DNA of 64,000 bases from Bacteriovoracaceae bacterium (GTDB taxonomy: Bacteria > Bdellovibrionota > Bacteriovoracia > Bacteriovoracales > Bacteriovoracaceae), in contig JAMPXB010000010.1 in the NCBI GenBank assembly GCA_023701435.1, forward strand, positions 1 to 64,000, read 5' to 3'. The notes beneath the pieces were generated by a model that saw only the letters and a program-made list of their open reading frames with translations, was not told the origin of the DNA and made no database searches. Made by a program: the position numbers and the translations under genes. This document shows, in pieces, positions 13,573-20,862 of this stretch. The first letter of the stretch is position 1. The number at the start of each line of letters is the position of its first letter.

Positions 13573-13585
13573 CTGAGATTTGCCC

Positions 13586-13591
13586 TATAAT
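13586..13591 (+). promoter_or_regulatory. Perfect -10 box 6 nt from a start codon (leaderless candidate)
   Basis: TATAAT ends 6 nt before the ATG at 13598, so the expected transcription start coincides with the start codon. A weak -35 (TTGTTC, 13564-13569) lies 16 bp upstream. No Shine-Dalgarno is present. Confidence 0.55.
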
Positions 13592-13597
13592 AGCATT

Positions 13598-13786
13598 ATG
13601 AATGAAGTCGTCCTAGAAATCTCCTCAATTTGCGTATCCTGCGACAATTGCCGCCTGGTTTGTCCGGAAAACGCTGTCGTGACCAATGGTCAGGCTTATT
13701 TCATTGATCGCTGGAGCTGCACTCTCTGCGGTCTGTGCGTTGAAGTTTGTCCCGTTGATTGTATCAAAGAGACCTCGGCTACTTAA
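13598..13786 (+). CDS. 4Fe-4S ferredoxin-type protein
   Basis: A 62-residue ferredoxin with two Cys clusters: CVSCDNCRLVCPENAV and CTLCGLCVEVCPVDCI, each giving CxxCxxC...CP, so it should hold two [4Fe-4S] clusters and act as a soluble electron carrier. The ATG at 13598 is preferred over an upstream in-frame TTG because that lies within the promoter region and the conserved fold starts after residue 5. The gene overlaps the end of murU by 8 bp in convergent orientation and appears to be transcribed without a leader. Confidence 0.9.
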   Translation: MNEVVLEISSICVSCDNCRLVCPENAVVTNGQAYFIDRWSCTLCGLCVEVCPVDCIKETSAT

Positions 13787-14732
13787 CCTCTTCTGTCAGC
13801 TCATTCCACCAGATCAAAGGCCGTGCATCTTTGTGCGCCCCCTGACCTTTGAGGATAATTCCCGCATTCAGCTCCCTGGCTTCTTCATCTGGATTAAGGT
13901 TCACAACTCGAGGTGATTTGGCGTGATAACTTAGTTCCTGCAAATTTATTTTCCAAGTTTTCAGCGCCCTCTCCTCCACCAAAAATCTCAGAAAGGGATG
14001 AGTCGATTTCATCCGATACGTTTGAAGAATCAGATGGGTCGTTTCCCAATATCTTTTTATAGTACCGAAGTCCCAGTAATCCACATTGTCCAAACGAATG
14101 GCGGGGATATCTTTTTTAGTAAAGGGACAAACTGATTCAAAAAACGGACTAACTCCAGGAATTTTTTCCAGTTGGGCCAGATCCACATAGGAGATGCCAG
14201 TATAAGTTTCAACCATCTTGCCGGCAGGAAGATCCTTGTTCTTAATGATGTTTTTTACCAGACGCTTATCATCGATCTCCAGGGCATTGTAACCCAAGGC
14301 TGGATTGACCCAGTAAGAGAACAAGGCAGCCGCGGACTTCTGGTAGGGCTCCAGGATTTTGTAAAAATCATCTTTCTTAAGATAGAAAAACTGATCTGCA
14401 TTTAAAATCAGAAGTTTTCCACGGTACTTCACCTCAGGCTGGGAAGCGAGGTTATGGACGGCTCCACCAATGTCGAGAATTTCTGGTTTTTCCCATAAAA
14501 ACTTAACACCATCGAAAGCACTCCTGGTCTTGCAGAAGTTTTCGATCTCCTCACCCATGTGATGGAGATTGATGTAAATCTTATCAATACCCAAGCTGCG
14601 GGCATAGGCCACCTGCAGTTCAAGTAGGCTTTTTTCAAAAACCGGCCAGAGTACTTTGGGTAATTTTTGGCCAATGGCACCCATACGGGTTCCAAATCCA
14701 GCGGCCAGGATTAAGCAATGATCAATTCGCAT
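13779..14732 (-). CDS. murU: MurU-like sugar-1-phosphate nucleotidyltransferase
   Basis: The N-terminal 220 residues are a nucleotidyltransferase of the MurU/RmlA type: LILAAGFGTRM...KLPKVLWPV (phosphate-binding loop and Lys), YINLHHMGEEIE, EKPEILDIGGAV, and LLILNADQFF (metal Asp). In the MurNAc salvage route, MurU makes UDP-MurNAc from MurNAc-1-phosphate. The adjacent kinase matches AmgK, so the pathway call rests mainly on the pair. The protein has 317 residues, against about 225 for typical MurU, because of a C-terminal tail of about 95 residues (from HLILQTYRMKSTHPFLRFLV). It overlaps amgK by 11 bp. Another NDP-sugar product remains possible. Confidence 0.78.
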   Translation of the reverse strand: MRIDHCLILAAGFGTRMGAIGQKLPKVLWPVFEKSLLELQVAYARSLGIDKIYINLHHMGEEIENFCKTRSAFDGVKFLWEKPEILDIGGAVHNLASQPEVKYRGKLLILNADQFFYLKKDDFYKILEPYQKSAAALFSYWVNPALGYNALEIDDKRLVKNIIKNKDLPAGKMVETYTGISYVDLAQLEKIPGVSPFFESVCPFTKKDIPAIRLDNVDYWDFGTIKRYWETTHLILQTYRMKSTHPFLRFLVEERALKTWKINLQELSYHAKSPRVVNLNPDEEARELNAGIILKGQGAHKDARPLIWWNELTEEVK

Positions 14733-15753
14733 AGTAGTGTTGAAAAAGTTTCTTTTTAAGTTCAGTATATCTCGGATTATCCATCATAATCCTTCTTATT
14801 TTTTCCATCGCAAAACCGATATATTTTAAATAGCGGTCATCTTTACGCCAGTTATAAATGTAACAGAAACTTCCCACCGCCTTAAACACTCGCTGAATGG
14901 TCATGTCTTCATAAAGAGCGAGGAAGTCATCATAGCTTTTCTGGCCATGAATCGCCGGATCCAGATTCTCATAATAGTAGCGTTTAAGGGCCACGCGGTT
15001 TTCTTCTTTTAAATCGTAATAGCAATCTTCCAGAAGGGAAACCAGGTCATATTGAGGAATTCCCCAGCGGGCATCCTGAAAATCAATAAAAATATAATCT
15101 GCGTCCTTCACCATGATGTTACGGGAATGGAAGTCACGATGAGTGATAACCATTTTTTGCTCCGCCAGTCGTTTCATAATGGGGTCAAAGAGCGCTTCCA
15201 ATTCACTGATCAGGTTTTCATCCTGCGTCTTATAAAAGAAGTTCAAAAAGTACTTAAAAGTAAATCGTGTTTCATCCATGTACTTTTGATAATCAAACTT
15301 TAACTGAAAGAGGTTCGGGTTTTTTACCGCCGAAGGCTGAATACGGTGCAGTTCCAGCAGCTGATCAACAATGGTCTTGTAAATTTTAAATTCGGTTTGA
15401 CTGGAAGTAATGGTGCTCAAATGATGAAGCAGGGTCAGATTACCCAGATCTTCTTGAAGGGAATAACCGCGGGATAAATTATGGTCGACGATCTTTGGTA
15501 CTTTGATGCTGTTTGAAGCAAGGAATTGCTGAACCGACAGGAACGGATGCTTTTCCATAGATTCATTAAATGGGTTGTCTAAACAAACCACATAACTGTC
15601 TTTGGTTGTGAAAATGCGGTAATAACGTCGGGTAGAAGCATCACCGGTTAATTTATCGACTTCTTCGAGTTTTTCATCTTTTAAGAGATCTTTGTCCTGA
15701 GTCTTATTGAATAGTTCTTCAATAAAAAATTGTTCTGCCTGTTCTGGTTTCAT
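14722..15753 (-). CDS. amgK: AmgK-like anomeric amino-sugar kinase
   Basis: An aminoglycoside phosphotransferase-fold kinase of 343 residues. It has GDASTRRYYRIF (matching the AmgK family DASFRRYFR block), the catalytic loop ITHRDFHSRNIMV and the metal site FIDFQDARWG. AmgK phosphorylates the anomeric carbon of MurNAc or GlcNAc in the cytoplasm, feeding MurU and bypassing de novo UDP-MurNAc synthesis. It overlaps murU (11 bp) and the upstream lipoprotein gene (4 bp, ATGA), so all are translationally coupled. Together with the LysM gene upstream this looks like a cell-wall salvage operon. Confidence 0.87.
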   Translation of the reverse strand: MKPEQAEQFFIEELFNKTQDKDLLKDEKLEEVDKLTGDASTRRYYRIFTTKDSYVVCLDNPFNESMEKHPFLSVQQFLASNSIKVPKIVDHNLSRGYSLQEDLGNLTLLHHLSTITSSQTEFKIYKTIVDQLLELHRIQPSAVKNPNLFQLKFDYQKYMDETRFTFKYFLNFFYKTQDENLISELEALFDPIMKRLAEQKMVITHRDFHSRNIMVKDADYIFIDFQDARWGIPQYDLVSLLEDCYYDLKEENRVALKRYYYENLDPAIHGQKSYDDFLALYEDMTIQRVFKAVGSFCYIYNWRKDDRYLKYIGFAMEKIRRIMMDNPRYTELKKKLFQHYYAN

Positions 15754-16592
15754 TGATTCTGGTCCCTAATGCTGTTGATGAATGTGTAAAAAGTTTTAGA
15801 TGAATTTTTTTTGGCCAGAGGATTCTCTTCATCAGAACTTTTAATTAAAAAGGCCTTGAATAATGATTCTTCCCTGTTTATCAGATTCGCATCCCCCACC
15901 TGTAAAATGAAGTCAGCAGTATTGCGGTTTTGAGTTTGAAGCCAGGACAAGTAGTACTCACCGTCAAAGCCAGACCTAACGGTTAAATAATAGGCCCATT
16001 TATGAATTTCCATTTTCTCTTCAAGGACCAATCGGTTCAGAAGAAGAATTCTTTCTAACGGAAGGTAACCAACCGGAACGATGGTGTGCTTTGGGTAGAG
16101 AAGATTTTCACTTCTTACTAATTCGTAGGCTAGGATACTGACCAGCATACTTTCATGCTTGATGTATTTTTCAATAAGGCCCCGGGAGATAAAAAGCTCT
16201 CCCTTGGGAAGCGAAAAGTGCAAAGGAGCATCAGAATCCAAAACGGTGATGCTGGCACTTTTAAGATCTTTGAAGAAGATCTCATTGTTGGAAATAATTT
16301 CGTTAGTTACCCACTGGAGGTATTTCTTGGAGGGGGCACTAAGCTCCAGGGTCTTAGTCTCCGGTGTTATCAGGAAGCCCTTTTTAAGTGAGGCCAGATG
16401 ATCTGCAAAGTCCTGTGAGGACATGACACTATAGCCATCCCCCAAGGATTTTTCTTTCTTTTTGCCGGGGATCTTAAAAGTGCTGCAAGCTGACAACAGA
16501 AGGAGCAGAAGAAAATAGCAACCCCCCGACGTAAGCGGGGGTTTGTTGAAGTAATATGAATGCTGGATATTAAATTTCGTTTGCGACTTCAC
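15750..16592 (-). CDS. Lipoprotein with degenerate M48-like domain (no HEXXH)
   Basis: A lipobox (LLLLLLSAC, Cys 36) follows an unusually long N-terminal stretch. Residues about 115-165 follow the M48 pattern: SLPKGELFISRGLIEKYIKHESMLVSILAYE resembles the family's alpha/beta lead into the zinc site, but the motif reads YELVR instead of HEXXH, so metal binding is lost. The C-terminal WAYYLTVRSGFDGEYYLSWL also recalls the M48 helix that carries the third ligand. It should be an outer-membrane pseudoprotease. Its start overlaps the LysM gene by 23 bp, its end overlaps amgK by 4 bp. The first 25 residues are encoded across a strong hairpin (16520-16543). No alternative ATG exists before the lipobox. 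Confidence 0.7.
   Translation of the reverse strand: MKSQTKFNIQHSYYFNKPPLTSGGCYFLLLLLLSACSTFKIPGKKKEKSLGDGYSVMSSQDFADHLASLKKGFLITPETKTLELSAPSKKYLQWVTNEIISNNEIFFKDLKSASITVLDSDAPLHFSLPKGELFISRGLIEKYIKHESMLVSILAYELVRSENLLYPKHTIVPVGYLPLERILLLNRLVLEEKMEIHKWAYYLTVRSGFDGEYYLSWLQTQNRNTADFILQVGDANLINREESLFKAFLIKSSDEENPLAKKNSSKTFYTFINSIRDQNQ
16520..16543 (-). terminator. GC-rich intercistronic hairpin inside the lipoprotein gene start
   Basis: The arms 16520-16528 and 16536-16543 pair through five G-C pairs plus closing A-T pairs around a 7-nt loop, directly downstream of the LysM stop codon. The U-tract after it on the minus strand is broken (TTGCTATTTT), so it may be a weak terminator, attenuator or mRNA-stability element rather than a full stop. 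Confidence 0.5.
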
Positions 16593-17232
16593 GACCGTTT
16601 TCTAGGTAATAAATGGTGAAGCCCGCATAAATCTTGTTCGGATCTTTGATCAGAGGGCGATTGTTTTCCCAGATAAGCTTCCACTTACTGATTGTAGTAT
16701 AAACCTGCTTGGAAATACCACCAAGAGTATCACCAGTGCGGATCAAATAAGGAAGACCTTGCGGGTTCCATACGAATTCCTCAGCAGGCGCGGTATAATT
16801 CAAAACCATGCCTTCTTTGATATTAGTGCTGCCTTTAAGGGCTTCTCTATTTTGGTTAGCAAGGTCTTTCCAAAGCTCATAGTCTCCGTAAAGTTTGAAA
16901 GCAATCAACATCAGGGTTTCATTTTTCTGAACAGTATACTGTTTAACCATTCCAGCATCATTGGAAATGACCGGAGCTGCTTCCGTACTAGTTTCTGAAA
17001 CTACCGGAGCGTCCATCAGACTGGTTTCCGGAACTGACTCTTCAGTGGCCGTAACTTCCTGAGCACCTGTTTCAACCAGGGACTGATCTCCCTCGGCTGG
17101 ATTTTCAATAAATTCGTCAGCATCTGACAATTCAATCTGAGGGGTTTCCTCATTCACTTTCTGTGCAGATTTAGAGCCGGAACAAGAAACAAGGCTAAAA
17201 CTTAGAATTACCAACCATGGTAATAGATTCAT
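16570..17232 (-). CDS. LysM-domain lipoprotein
   Basis: From ATG 17232 (preceded by AGGGAG) the protein has 220 residues with a lipobox near its N-terminus (MNLLPWLVILSFSLVSCSG, Cys 17). An acidic, low-complexity Thr/Glu/Pro-rich linker (about 20-95) leads to two LysM repeats: the first starts YTVQKNETLMLIAFKLYG, the second YLIRTGDTLGGISKQVY and ends NKIYAGFTIYYL. LysM binds N-acetylglucosamine in peptidoglycan, so the protein likely tethers the outer membrane to the wall or guides partner enzymes. It heads the run LysM, M48-like, amgK, murU. An 8-residue upstream extension lacks support. Confidence 0.88.
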   Translation of the reverse strand: MNLLPWLVILSFSLVSCSGSKSAQKVNEETPQIELSDADEFIENPAEGDQSLVETGAQEVTATEESVPETSLMDAPVVSETSTEAAPVISNDAGMVKQYTVQKNETLMLIAFKLYGDYELWKDLANQNREALKGSTNIKEGMVLNYTAPAEEFVWNPQGLPYLIRTGDTLGGISKQVYTTISKWKLIWENNRPLIKDPNKIYAGFTIYYLENGREVANEI

Positions 17233-17315
17233 AATCACTCCCTGATAATGACACACAGATAGAGTTTATTATAACTGCAACCCTACGGGGAGGGTGGAAA
17301 AATTTGCTAAGTTAT

Positions 17316-17990
17316 TTAAAAATGAAAAAACATATCTTTCTGGTCAATTGAATCCCAGATGCGTTTTACCAAACGATCAAAGTGTTCTTCATTGTCCAGG
17401 AAGTCTAATTCATCAGTATCGACGATCAGCGACTTACCCAAATTATAATTGCTGTACCATTCATCATAATACTTATTCAGACTGGTAAGATATTCAGTAG
17501 GAATCGCCTGCTCGTAGTCACGGCCACGCAGCTTGATTCTTTCCTGAAGTTTAGGAATTGAGCGGCGTAAGAAAATCATCAAGGTCGGTGGGCTAAGGAA
17601 CTGGGTCATGGACTCATAGAGATTACGGTAGTTGGTGTAATCCCGCTCATCCAGCATACCCTGATCAAAAAGCGAACGAGCGAAGATATTAGCATCTTCA
17701 TAGATGGAACGATCTTGAACAGAGCTGGCCGGTAAATTTTCAATTTCTTTGTGGGTGTTAAAACGGTGAGTCAGAAAATAAACCTGCAAAGGAAATGACC
17801 AGCGACTCATGTCTCCGTAGAAGTCAGAGAGATAAGGATTATCTTGAACCGATTCAAAATGCGGCTTCCAGCCTAATCTTTCAGACAGTTTTTTAGTGAG
17901 AGTTGTTTTACCACTACCAATATTTCCCGCCACAACCACAAACATGGGATTAGCGACGGTGCTAAGACGATGGTAGGCCTGTTCTGACAT
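17316..17990 (-). CDS. Deoxynucleoside kinase (dNK family)
   Basis: A 224-residue P-loop kinase: VVVAGNIGSGKTTLTKKL (Walker A), ESVQDNPYLSDFYGD (substrate-binding Glu), QDRSIYEDANIFA (the DRS motif typical of deoxyadenosine/deoxyguanosine kinases) and a LID segment IKLRGRDYE. It phosphorylates deoxynucleosides for salvage, which fits life on host or environmental DNA. The ATG at 17990 is chosen because AGGAGA lies 7 nt before it; an upstream ATG at 18011 would run through that site. Purine or pyrimidine preference cannot be set from the motifs. It is 83 bp ahead of the LysM gene. Confidence 0.88.
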   Translation of the reverse strand: MSEQAYHRLSTVANPMFVVVAGNIGSGKTTLTKKLSERLGWKPHFESVQDNPYLSDFYGDMSRWSFPLQVYFLTHRFNTHKEIENLPASSVQDRSIYEDANIFARSLFDQGMLDERDYTNYRNLYESMTQFLSPPTLMIFLRRSIPKLQERIKLRGRDYEQAIPTEYLTSLNKYYDEWYSNYNLGKSLIVDTDELDFLDNEEHFDRLVKRIWDSIDQKDMFFHF

Positions 17991-18083
17991 TAAGTTCTCC
18001 TGAATTTGCATCGTAAAAGCGTATTATGAAATCCGCTAGAAATCTTGACTCATTTAATCAATTTTATATTTTTTTTTGATGCG

Positions 18084-19725: not shown

Positions 19726-20862
19726 ATGGACTTTGCCCTATCCTCAGAACAACTCGAGATTCGCGAGCTTGCTCTCAAGTTTGCCAAAAATGAGATGATT
19801 CCTCATGCTCAGGAATATGATGAGGCGGGAACCTTTCCTCATGAAATTTTCAGAAAGGCTTGGGAACTAGGCTTGATCAATACCTGTATCCCGGCAGAAT
19901 ACGGCGGCACCGGGTTTTCTTCAGTCGACAGTGTGATTATTTCGGAAGCCCTCGCCTATGGCTGCATGGGCATGAACACTTCCTTCATGGCCAACGACCT
20001 GGCGCTGTTGCCGATTGTGATCGGCGGCTCTCATGAGCAAAAGAAAAAATTCCTCGAACCCTTTACTCAAGATTTTAAAATCGCTTCTTTTTGCTTAACC
20101 GAGCCAGGCAATGGTTCCGATGCCGGGGGCATTAAGACCCAAATAAAAGATGGCGGTGATCACTGGATCGTATCCGGTGAAAAGATGTGGATCACCAACG
20201 CCGGTTATGCTGATTTGTTTGTGGTTTATGGAACCATTGATCCCAATTTAAAACATAAAGGGATCTCGGCCATTGTGGTTGATCCCAAGTCACCGGGAAT
20301 TGAACTGGGTAAAAAAGAAGACAAAATGGGTCACCGTTCTTCTGACACCCGAGGTGTGCGCTTCAATAATGTGAAAGTGCCCAAAGAAAATATGTTGGGA
20401 AAACCAGGGGAGGGCTGGGCGATTGCCATGAAGACCCTGGACCACTCACGCCCGCTGGTGGCCTCTTCAGCATTGGGCGGTTCGGCCCGAGCGCTGGAAC
20501 TTTGTATTCAGTATTCCAAAGAAAGAATTCAATTTGGAGTTCCGATTGCAAAGCATCAGGCCATTCAATTTATGATTGCCGAAATGGGTATGAAAGTTGA
20601 GGCTGCCCGGCTACTTGTCCACAAAGCCGCATGGCTCTGTGATCAAGGTGCCCACAATACCGAAATTGCCTCTTATGCAAAGGCTTTTGCGTCCGACTCT
20701 TGTATGCAAATAACGACAGATGCAGTACAAATTTATGGCGGTTACGGTTATAGTAAAGAATACCCTGTTGAAAAACTCATGCGCGACGCTAAACTAATCC
20801 AGATTTATGAAGGGACCTCTCAAATCCAGCGTTTAGTGATGGCCCGCGAGTTGTTAAAATAA
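19726..20862 (+). CDS. Acyl-CoA dehydrogenase
   Basis: A flavoprotein of 378 residues that dehydrogenates acyl-CoA thioesters and passes electrons to ETF. Signatures: FCLTEPGNGSDAGG (FAD/substrate contact), WITNAGYADLFVVYG, RIQFGVPIAKHQAIQF and the C-terminal IYEGTSQIQRLVMAR, where E362 is the catalytic base as in short-chain, butyryl and related enzymes. The exact chain-length or branched-chain specificity cannot be told. AAGGA precedes the ATG. etfB and etfA follow in the same direction with 25- and 17-bp gaps, giving a complete dehydrogenase-ETF electron chain. Confidence 0.94.
   Translation: MDFALSSEQLEIRELALKFAKNEMIPHAQEYDEAGTFPHEIFRKAWELGLINTCIPAEYGGTGFSSVDSVIISEALAYGCMGMNTSFMANDLALLPIVIGGSHEQKKKFLEPFTQDFKIASFCLTEPGNGSDAGGIKTQIKDGGDHWIVSGEKMWITNAGYADLFVVYGTIDPNLKHKGISAIVVDPKSPGIELGKKEDKMGHRSSDTRGVRFNNVKVPKENMLGKPGEGWAIAMKTLDHSRPLVASSALGGSARALELCIQYSKERIQFGVPIAKHQAIQFMIAEMGMKVEAARLLVHKAAWLCDQGAHNTEIASYAKAFASDSCMQITTDAVQIYGGYGYSKEYPVEKLMRDAKLIQIYEGTSQIQRLVMARELLK

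Follow-up and report, generated by a model that had tools for sequence, protein, structure and literature searches.

The window, the whole 64,000-nt stretch of contig JAMPXB010000010.1 that we analyzed, belongs to a Bacteriovoracaceae genome of 3.63 Mb in 53 contigs. Four genes on the minus strand of the window, lysM, PP, amgK, and murU, lie among the following features.

13580..13786, plus strand: small ferredoxin-like ORF, convergent with murU (labeled by eye from its cysteine pattern)
13779..14732, minus strand: MurU-like nucleotidyltransferase
14722..15753, minus strand: AmgK-like sugar kinase
15750..16592, minus strand: PP, an M48-fold lipoprotein with a GTG start, in which HExxH is replaced by YELVR
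16523..16541, minus strand: terminator-like hairpin 3' of lysM with a T-rich tail behind it, in the 5' portion of the PP frame
16570..17232, minus strand: LysM lipoprotein (the open frame extends up to a GTG at 17256)
17316..18011, minus strand: deoxynucleoside kinase (dNK; PF01712) upstream of lysM, found in the same place in several other families

The four minus-strand genes overlap by 23 nt (lysM/PP), 4 nt (PP/amgK), and 11 nt (amgK/murU), and the ORF coordinates confirmed all three overlaps given in the preliminary description of this DNA. The 23-nt overlap depends on a GTG start for PP within the 3' end of lysM, and the hairpin lies between that GTG and the PP lipobox. The ferredoxin-like ORF extends into the 3' end of murU, which is the side on which other families carry anmK.

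The kinase and the nucleotidyltransferase resemble enzymes of a known recycling route. As in AmgK-MurU recycling in Pseudomonas putida, a kinase and a uridylyltransferase-type enzyme of the same families are encoded by adjacent genes. Among NCBIfam models, AmgK matched the kinase best (NF045759, E 1.1e-35), at 123 bits, far below the cut-off of 550. The residues H205, R206, D207, H209, and N212 and D224, Q226, and D227 were invariant in 29 sequences, and they correspond to HRDxHxxN and DFQD, which we take to be the catalytic motifs of the APH fold. The nucleotidyltransferase is a member of the GlmU/MurU superfamily and its gene adjoins amgK. It scored 45 bits with the MurU model (NF045761, cut-off 250, not reached) and higher, 64 bits, with the GlmU model. 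When the phylum profile of this protein was compared with the PDB, the best match was a mannose-1-phosphate guanyltransferase, and 8hhd, with a chain named N-acetylmuramate alpha-1-phosphate uridylyltransferase, was close behind (E 9e-40). The GlmU score and the best PDB match would fit a pair that works on a sugar or alcohol other than MurNAc. We consider this very unlikely: AmgK is the best model for the kinase, 8hhd is nearly as good a match as the first, the top-scoring model for the corresponding nucleotidyltransferase in a relative, G042, is MurU, and collinear pairs elsewhere have anmK as a neighbor.

Genes for other steps of MurNAc recycling are found near amgK-murU in relatives, strengthening the earlier assignment of this pair to MurNAc salvage. 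Outside the Bacteriovoracaceae (family f1), anmK adjoined murU in 24 of 58 loci (not counting the f1 loci L205 and L206) and was found in 27 of 54 genomes. A search of f1 genomes for anmK found it in 0/44 (0/26 and 0/18), a difference from the P. putida route, as is the presence of lipoproteins in the neighborhood. A GH3 (NagZ-type) gene was 5-6 kb from amgK in two genomes (G038 and G053), and the window genome has, like P. putida, a GH3 (NagZ-type) gene, the only one found. MurA is encoded there too, as is a MurB-like protein (127 bits, below the cut-off of 144.5), so salvage would supplement new synthesis and not replace it. PMC5371407 describes the roles of AnmK, MupP, AmgK, and MurU in Pseudomonas, and the comparison in PMC8067016 reports that, in one marine group of Bdellovibrionota, about half have anmK.

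The LysM lipoprotein has two LysM stretches (PF01476, E 1.2e-7) behind a lipobox, LVSC, that was read by eye, as was the lipobox of PP. In these respects it is like known LysM lipoproteins, and LysM domains bind peptidoglycan glycan. It differs from others in its fixed position adjoining M48-type and salvage genes: the LysM gene sits next to PP in f1 and, in other families, next to M48-type genes.

PP has the predicted fold of M48 peptidases and lacks their active site. It had no Pfam or NCBIfam match above cut-off. The structure of PP was modeled from 23 aligned f1 sequences (mean pLDDT 84.2, pTM 0.77), and a Foldseek search of the PDB with this model gave nine matches with E <=1.6e-4, all of them M48 peptidases (BepA, 3c37) and most of the best ones BepA; the next match had an E of 0.18. 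PP has 280 residues and is shorter than the matched BepA chains (406-418 residues). Comparisons of sequence profiles agreed with the fold. The f1 PP profile matched that of three HExxH-bearing relatives from the same slot beside amgK with E 9.6e-7 and that of ten with E 1.2e-10, and the other degenerate groups matched the HExxH-bearing group with E 4.6e-32 (f8), 1.7e-24 (f12), and 8.4e-31 (f15/19/20). Three HExxH-less proteins (L166, L171, and L186) exceeded the Pfam M48 cut-off and L184 was below it; L033, L051, and L072 had no match to Pfam M48. The short G042 protein is weakly supported as M48-type, with a probability of 8.2% against the HExxH-bearing group and 95.4% against f8.

The loss of catalytic residues was uniform in f1. 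HExxH was found in 0/34 f1 sequences; both His were replaced and the Glu was kept in all 34. In the motif alignment, the first His was present in 10/10 HExxH-bearing and 0/58 degenerate sequences (G042 has a gap there), and the second His was retained in 8/12 f8 and 4/7 f12 sequences. L158, whose protein is also without HExxH, was left out of this alignment. The third zinc ligand of M48 is presumably the Glu of ExxxD, and the corresponding column had Glu in 0/34 f1 and 2/24 other degenerate sequences, with the alignment being uncertain here: 31/34 f1 sequences have a Glu two columns further on. Values of dN/dS for PP were 0.06 and 0.20 and are weak evidence of purifying selection, as only two pairs were in the usable dS range (0.05-1.5). 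PP is M48-like by its profiles and its modeled fold and, lacking HExxH, is not an M48 peptidase, which bears out the original description of a degenerate M48-like lipoprotein.

The four-gene order is kept throughout f1. This survey took as its base the 95 f1 genomes in which PP was strongly matched, a listing from which f1 genomes without a match may be missing. An amgK match was present in 92 of these, and PP adjoined amgK on the same strand, with a gap of -7 to 93 nt, in all 91 genomes that have both on one contig; in G013 the two are on separate contigs, each at a contig end. The three genomes without an amgK match are G021 and G148, both of which have PP at a contig end, and G270. In G270 (L205, 3285-5673), ORFs for LysM, PP, and MurU are contiguous and no amgK was found between PP and MurU. 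One amgK match, in G284, has two stops inside and is cut by a contig end. Apart from L038 (G026), which yielded no LysM, the f1 loci compared have the four-gene order within the limits of the sequence retrieved. The named f1 loci L077-L081 have the same order, with L081 stopping short of murU; L077 (DISW01000011.1, Bacteriovoracaceae bacterium UBA6200) repeats the genus member G018 (G018:C18). An order kept throughout f1 is beyond chance, and the conservation that the preliminary description had proposed as a check is found through the family. Synteny in f1 is high across the whole region, including unrelated genes, so the f1 neighborhood alone is weak evidence of a functional connection.

The M48-type gene beside amgK extends beyond f1. 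We inspected 79 non-f1 Bdellovibrionota loci (21 + 58), with several loci for some families and one for others. By profile search, an M48-type ORF was directly upstream of amgK in 35 of the 79, representing nine families; most of these 35 proteins had also gone into building the search profiles. Ten have HExxH (f4, f13, f17, and f24) and 25 do not (f8, f12, f15, f19, and f20). The other 44 loci, in thirteen families, lack an M48-type gene in this position, and the M48-type lipoprotein is therefore not required beside amgK-murU. One of these, L040 (f5), has an HExxH-bearing ORF one gene further upstream. Among 80 named amgK loci from many phyla, an M48-type ORF was directly upstream in eight (L077-L083 and L092), all with titles that name Bdellovibrionota-type organisms; of the remaining 72, 70 have no such ORF directly upstream and two have no amgK ORF by profile. 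By these counts, the linkage of M48 and amgK is seen in Bdellovibrionota only, and not in all of that phylum. An amgK gene with no M48-type gene next to it on the upstream side, which comes under one of the results named at the outset as refuting the link, occurs across the phylum (the 44 loci above) and not within f1.

The order LysM, M48-type, amgK, murU is found in f1, f8, f15, f17, f19, f20, and f24. LysM was upstream in 12/13 f8 loci, and dNK in 9/13 f8 loci and also in f15, f17, and f19; no dNK was seen in the remaining kilobase of the f24 stretch, and the f20 stretch ends too early to tell. In the f4, f12, and f13 loci, the M48-type gene is present without a LysM match. Judging from these comparisons, the PP-amgK pairing looks old and widespread, and the grouping of lipoproteins with amgK noted at first in the window reflects LysM and M48-type lipoproteins that are old neighbors of amgK across families. 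The observation stands, and what it describes dates back further than the preliminary description supposed. In f6, f11, f14, f18, f21, and f22, the gene before amgK encodes a different protein of 220-414 residues (L174-L178, L185, L189-L194, L207-L212, and L216), and L036 and L037 have a sigma-54-type-regulator-like gene further upstream of amgK.

Protease chemistry was probably lost more than once while the protein stayed. In an AmgK tree of 84 rows, the HExxH-bearing f17 and f24 grouped with the degenerate f20 (SH-aLRT 88), and this group was inside a set that also holds the degenerate f8, f12, f15, and f19 (SH-aLRT 96). The tree implies three losses of HExxH, including that in f1, if loss is irreversible, and two changes by unordered parsimony; it is moderately supported and includes some long branches.

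These results could also be explained if the M48-type and LysM lipoproteins are BepA-like factors for envelope assembly or quality control that share a stable neighborhood with amgK-murU and have no direct role in salvage. BepA acts in outer-membrane assembly, not salvage, so the M48 fold that PP shares mostly with BepA does not point to salvage. The 44 loci in which amgK lacks the M48-type gene directly upstream, the retention of LysM and PP in G270, and the f1 synteny of unrelated genes would also fit this explanation, which we regard as the main rival and a real possibility, if the less probable one. Against it, in families whose further neighbors differ, the M48-type gene still abuts amgK and often overlaps it by 4 nt.

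The genes at the locus appear to be divided by a conserved hairpin. A hairpin of <=-10 kcal/mol with a T-rich tail was present after lysM in 28/31 f1 loci, compared to 0/34 after PP, 3/35 after AmgK, and 0/34 after MurU. At -7 kcal/mol, the counts for the same loci were 28, 3, 10, and 2, respectively. Four of the five named f1 loci have the hairpin after lysM (<=-10 kcal/mol); L081 does not. The helix was 98.9% paired in 19 genus members, in an alignment that omits G010 and G011, whose 33 bases are identical to those of G008 and G003, and G014, which has an N, and slid versions of the helix were at most 63% paired. Changes on both sides were seen in 3/10 pairs. The covariation score was reached by 0/500 shuffles and the number of pairs by 10/500, in shuffles that ignore relatedness. 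In the window there were 8 terminator-like sites versus a shuffled mean of 4.3 (sd 2.3), and a promoter scan gave 7 versus 9.8; such a site count from a single window proves little, and the evidence for the hairpin is its conservation. These results make it probable that lysM and PP-amgK-murU form separate units, or attenuated ones, with termination predicted from sequence, and they do not support the proposal of one four-gene coupled operon. The PP frame reads through the hairpin and T-rich tail (16487-16541), which fall just before and within the hydrophobic signal segment, and several other f1 genera have a similar hairpin in or just before the PP start.

The division of the genes bears on the interpretation offered in the preliminary description, in which both lipoproteins form a surface module that would capture muropeptides and supply AmgK-MurU. 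Glycan binding by LysM domains, the lipobox on both lipoproteins, and the order shared by seven families are consistent with such a module, but the hairpin separates lysM from the remaining genes in f1, three families have the M48-type gene without a LysM match, and no transporter was recognized among the named neighbors of the surveyed loci. We think this module quite unlikely.

The gene order, the M48 homology, the loss of catalytic residues, and the conserved hairpin are established computationally, and the explanation to which we lean, with about as much doubt as confidence in it as a whole, is that the locus is the form taken in Bacteriovoracaceae by an old peptidoglycan-salvage neighborhood, with a non-catalytic M48-type lipoprotein. 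This neighborhood comprises dNK, the LysM lipoprotein, the M48-type lipoprotein, amgK, and murU, plus anmK in other families. AmgK and MurU would convert MurNAc to UDP-MurNAc in the cytoplasm. Since f1 is without anmK, the substrate of its AmgK would be free MurNAc, released for instance by lysozyme-type cutting, rather than anhydroMurNAc. The M48-type lipoprotein, with its translation coupled to that of amgK, may bind partners in the wall or outer membrane, or serve as their scaffold, outside the cytoplasm. Peptidoglycan binding would fall to the LysM lipoprotein, which, because the terminator-like hairpin is directly 3' of lysM, is probably expressed in part separately. Here we infer the substrates, the locations, and termination, and, from context, the functional tie between the lipoproteins and salvage. 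Counted against this explanation are the 44 of 79 loci without the M48-type gene directly upstream, G270 without an amgK match, and the scores of AmgK and MurU far below the cut-offs.

A bolder form of the salvage explanation is improbable in our judgment. A salvage-linked M48 protease would have turned non-catalytic repeatedly at a fixed slot by amgK-murU and would now be a periplasmic receptor or regulator tying the supply of wall fragments to MurNAc salvage, with the f1 hairpin over its start letting translation of the overlapping frame set the level of the salvage enzymes. The Bdellovibrionota include known bacterial predators; predation is known from the Bacteriovoracaceae, and the host of this DNA may be a predator.

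If the link between the lipoproteins and salvage is real, it would name envelope partners for the AmgK-MurU route, and a protease family would, probably more than once, have lost its chemistry yet kept its fold and position. Families that retain HExxH could then be compared with those that lack it as a test of the non-catalytic role. The f1 genomes also raise the question of how wall sugar is reused without anmK. A literature search, with most subscription-journal papers outside its reach, returned nothing on AmgK with M48, Bdellovibrio with AmgK, or Bacteriovorax with M48. By their titles, the papers on M48 and pseudoprotease concern Babesia, Theileria, and Arabidopsis. A word search of PMC7511926 found no word beginning with recycl or salvag.

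We considered whether G042 (L219-L222; 97% complete, 2.0 Mb) makes its wall from salvage alone. It has amgK, murU, anmK, and MurF- and Mpl-like genes, the last two being the only Mur ligases found; its sole and weak match to the MurA model is AroA, and there was no match to MurB. We rejected this idea: searches of G042 also found no MraY, MurG, or MurC, compared to at least 5 matches in each of 23 relatives, and missing contigs are thus at least as likely. In the window, ARAGORN called a tRNA-Pro at 20088-20186, within a same-strand acyl-CoA dehydrogenase-like ORF, and this is probably a false call.
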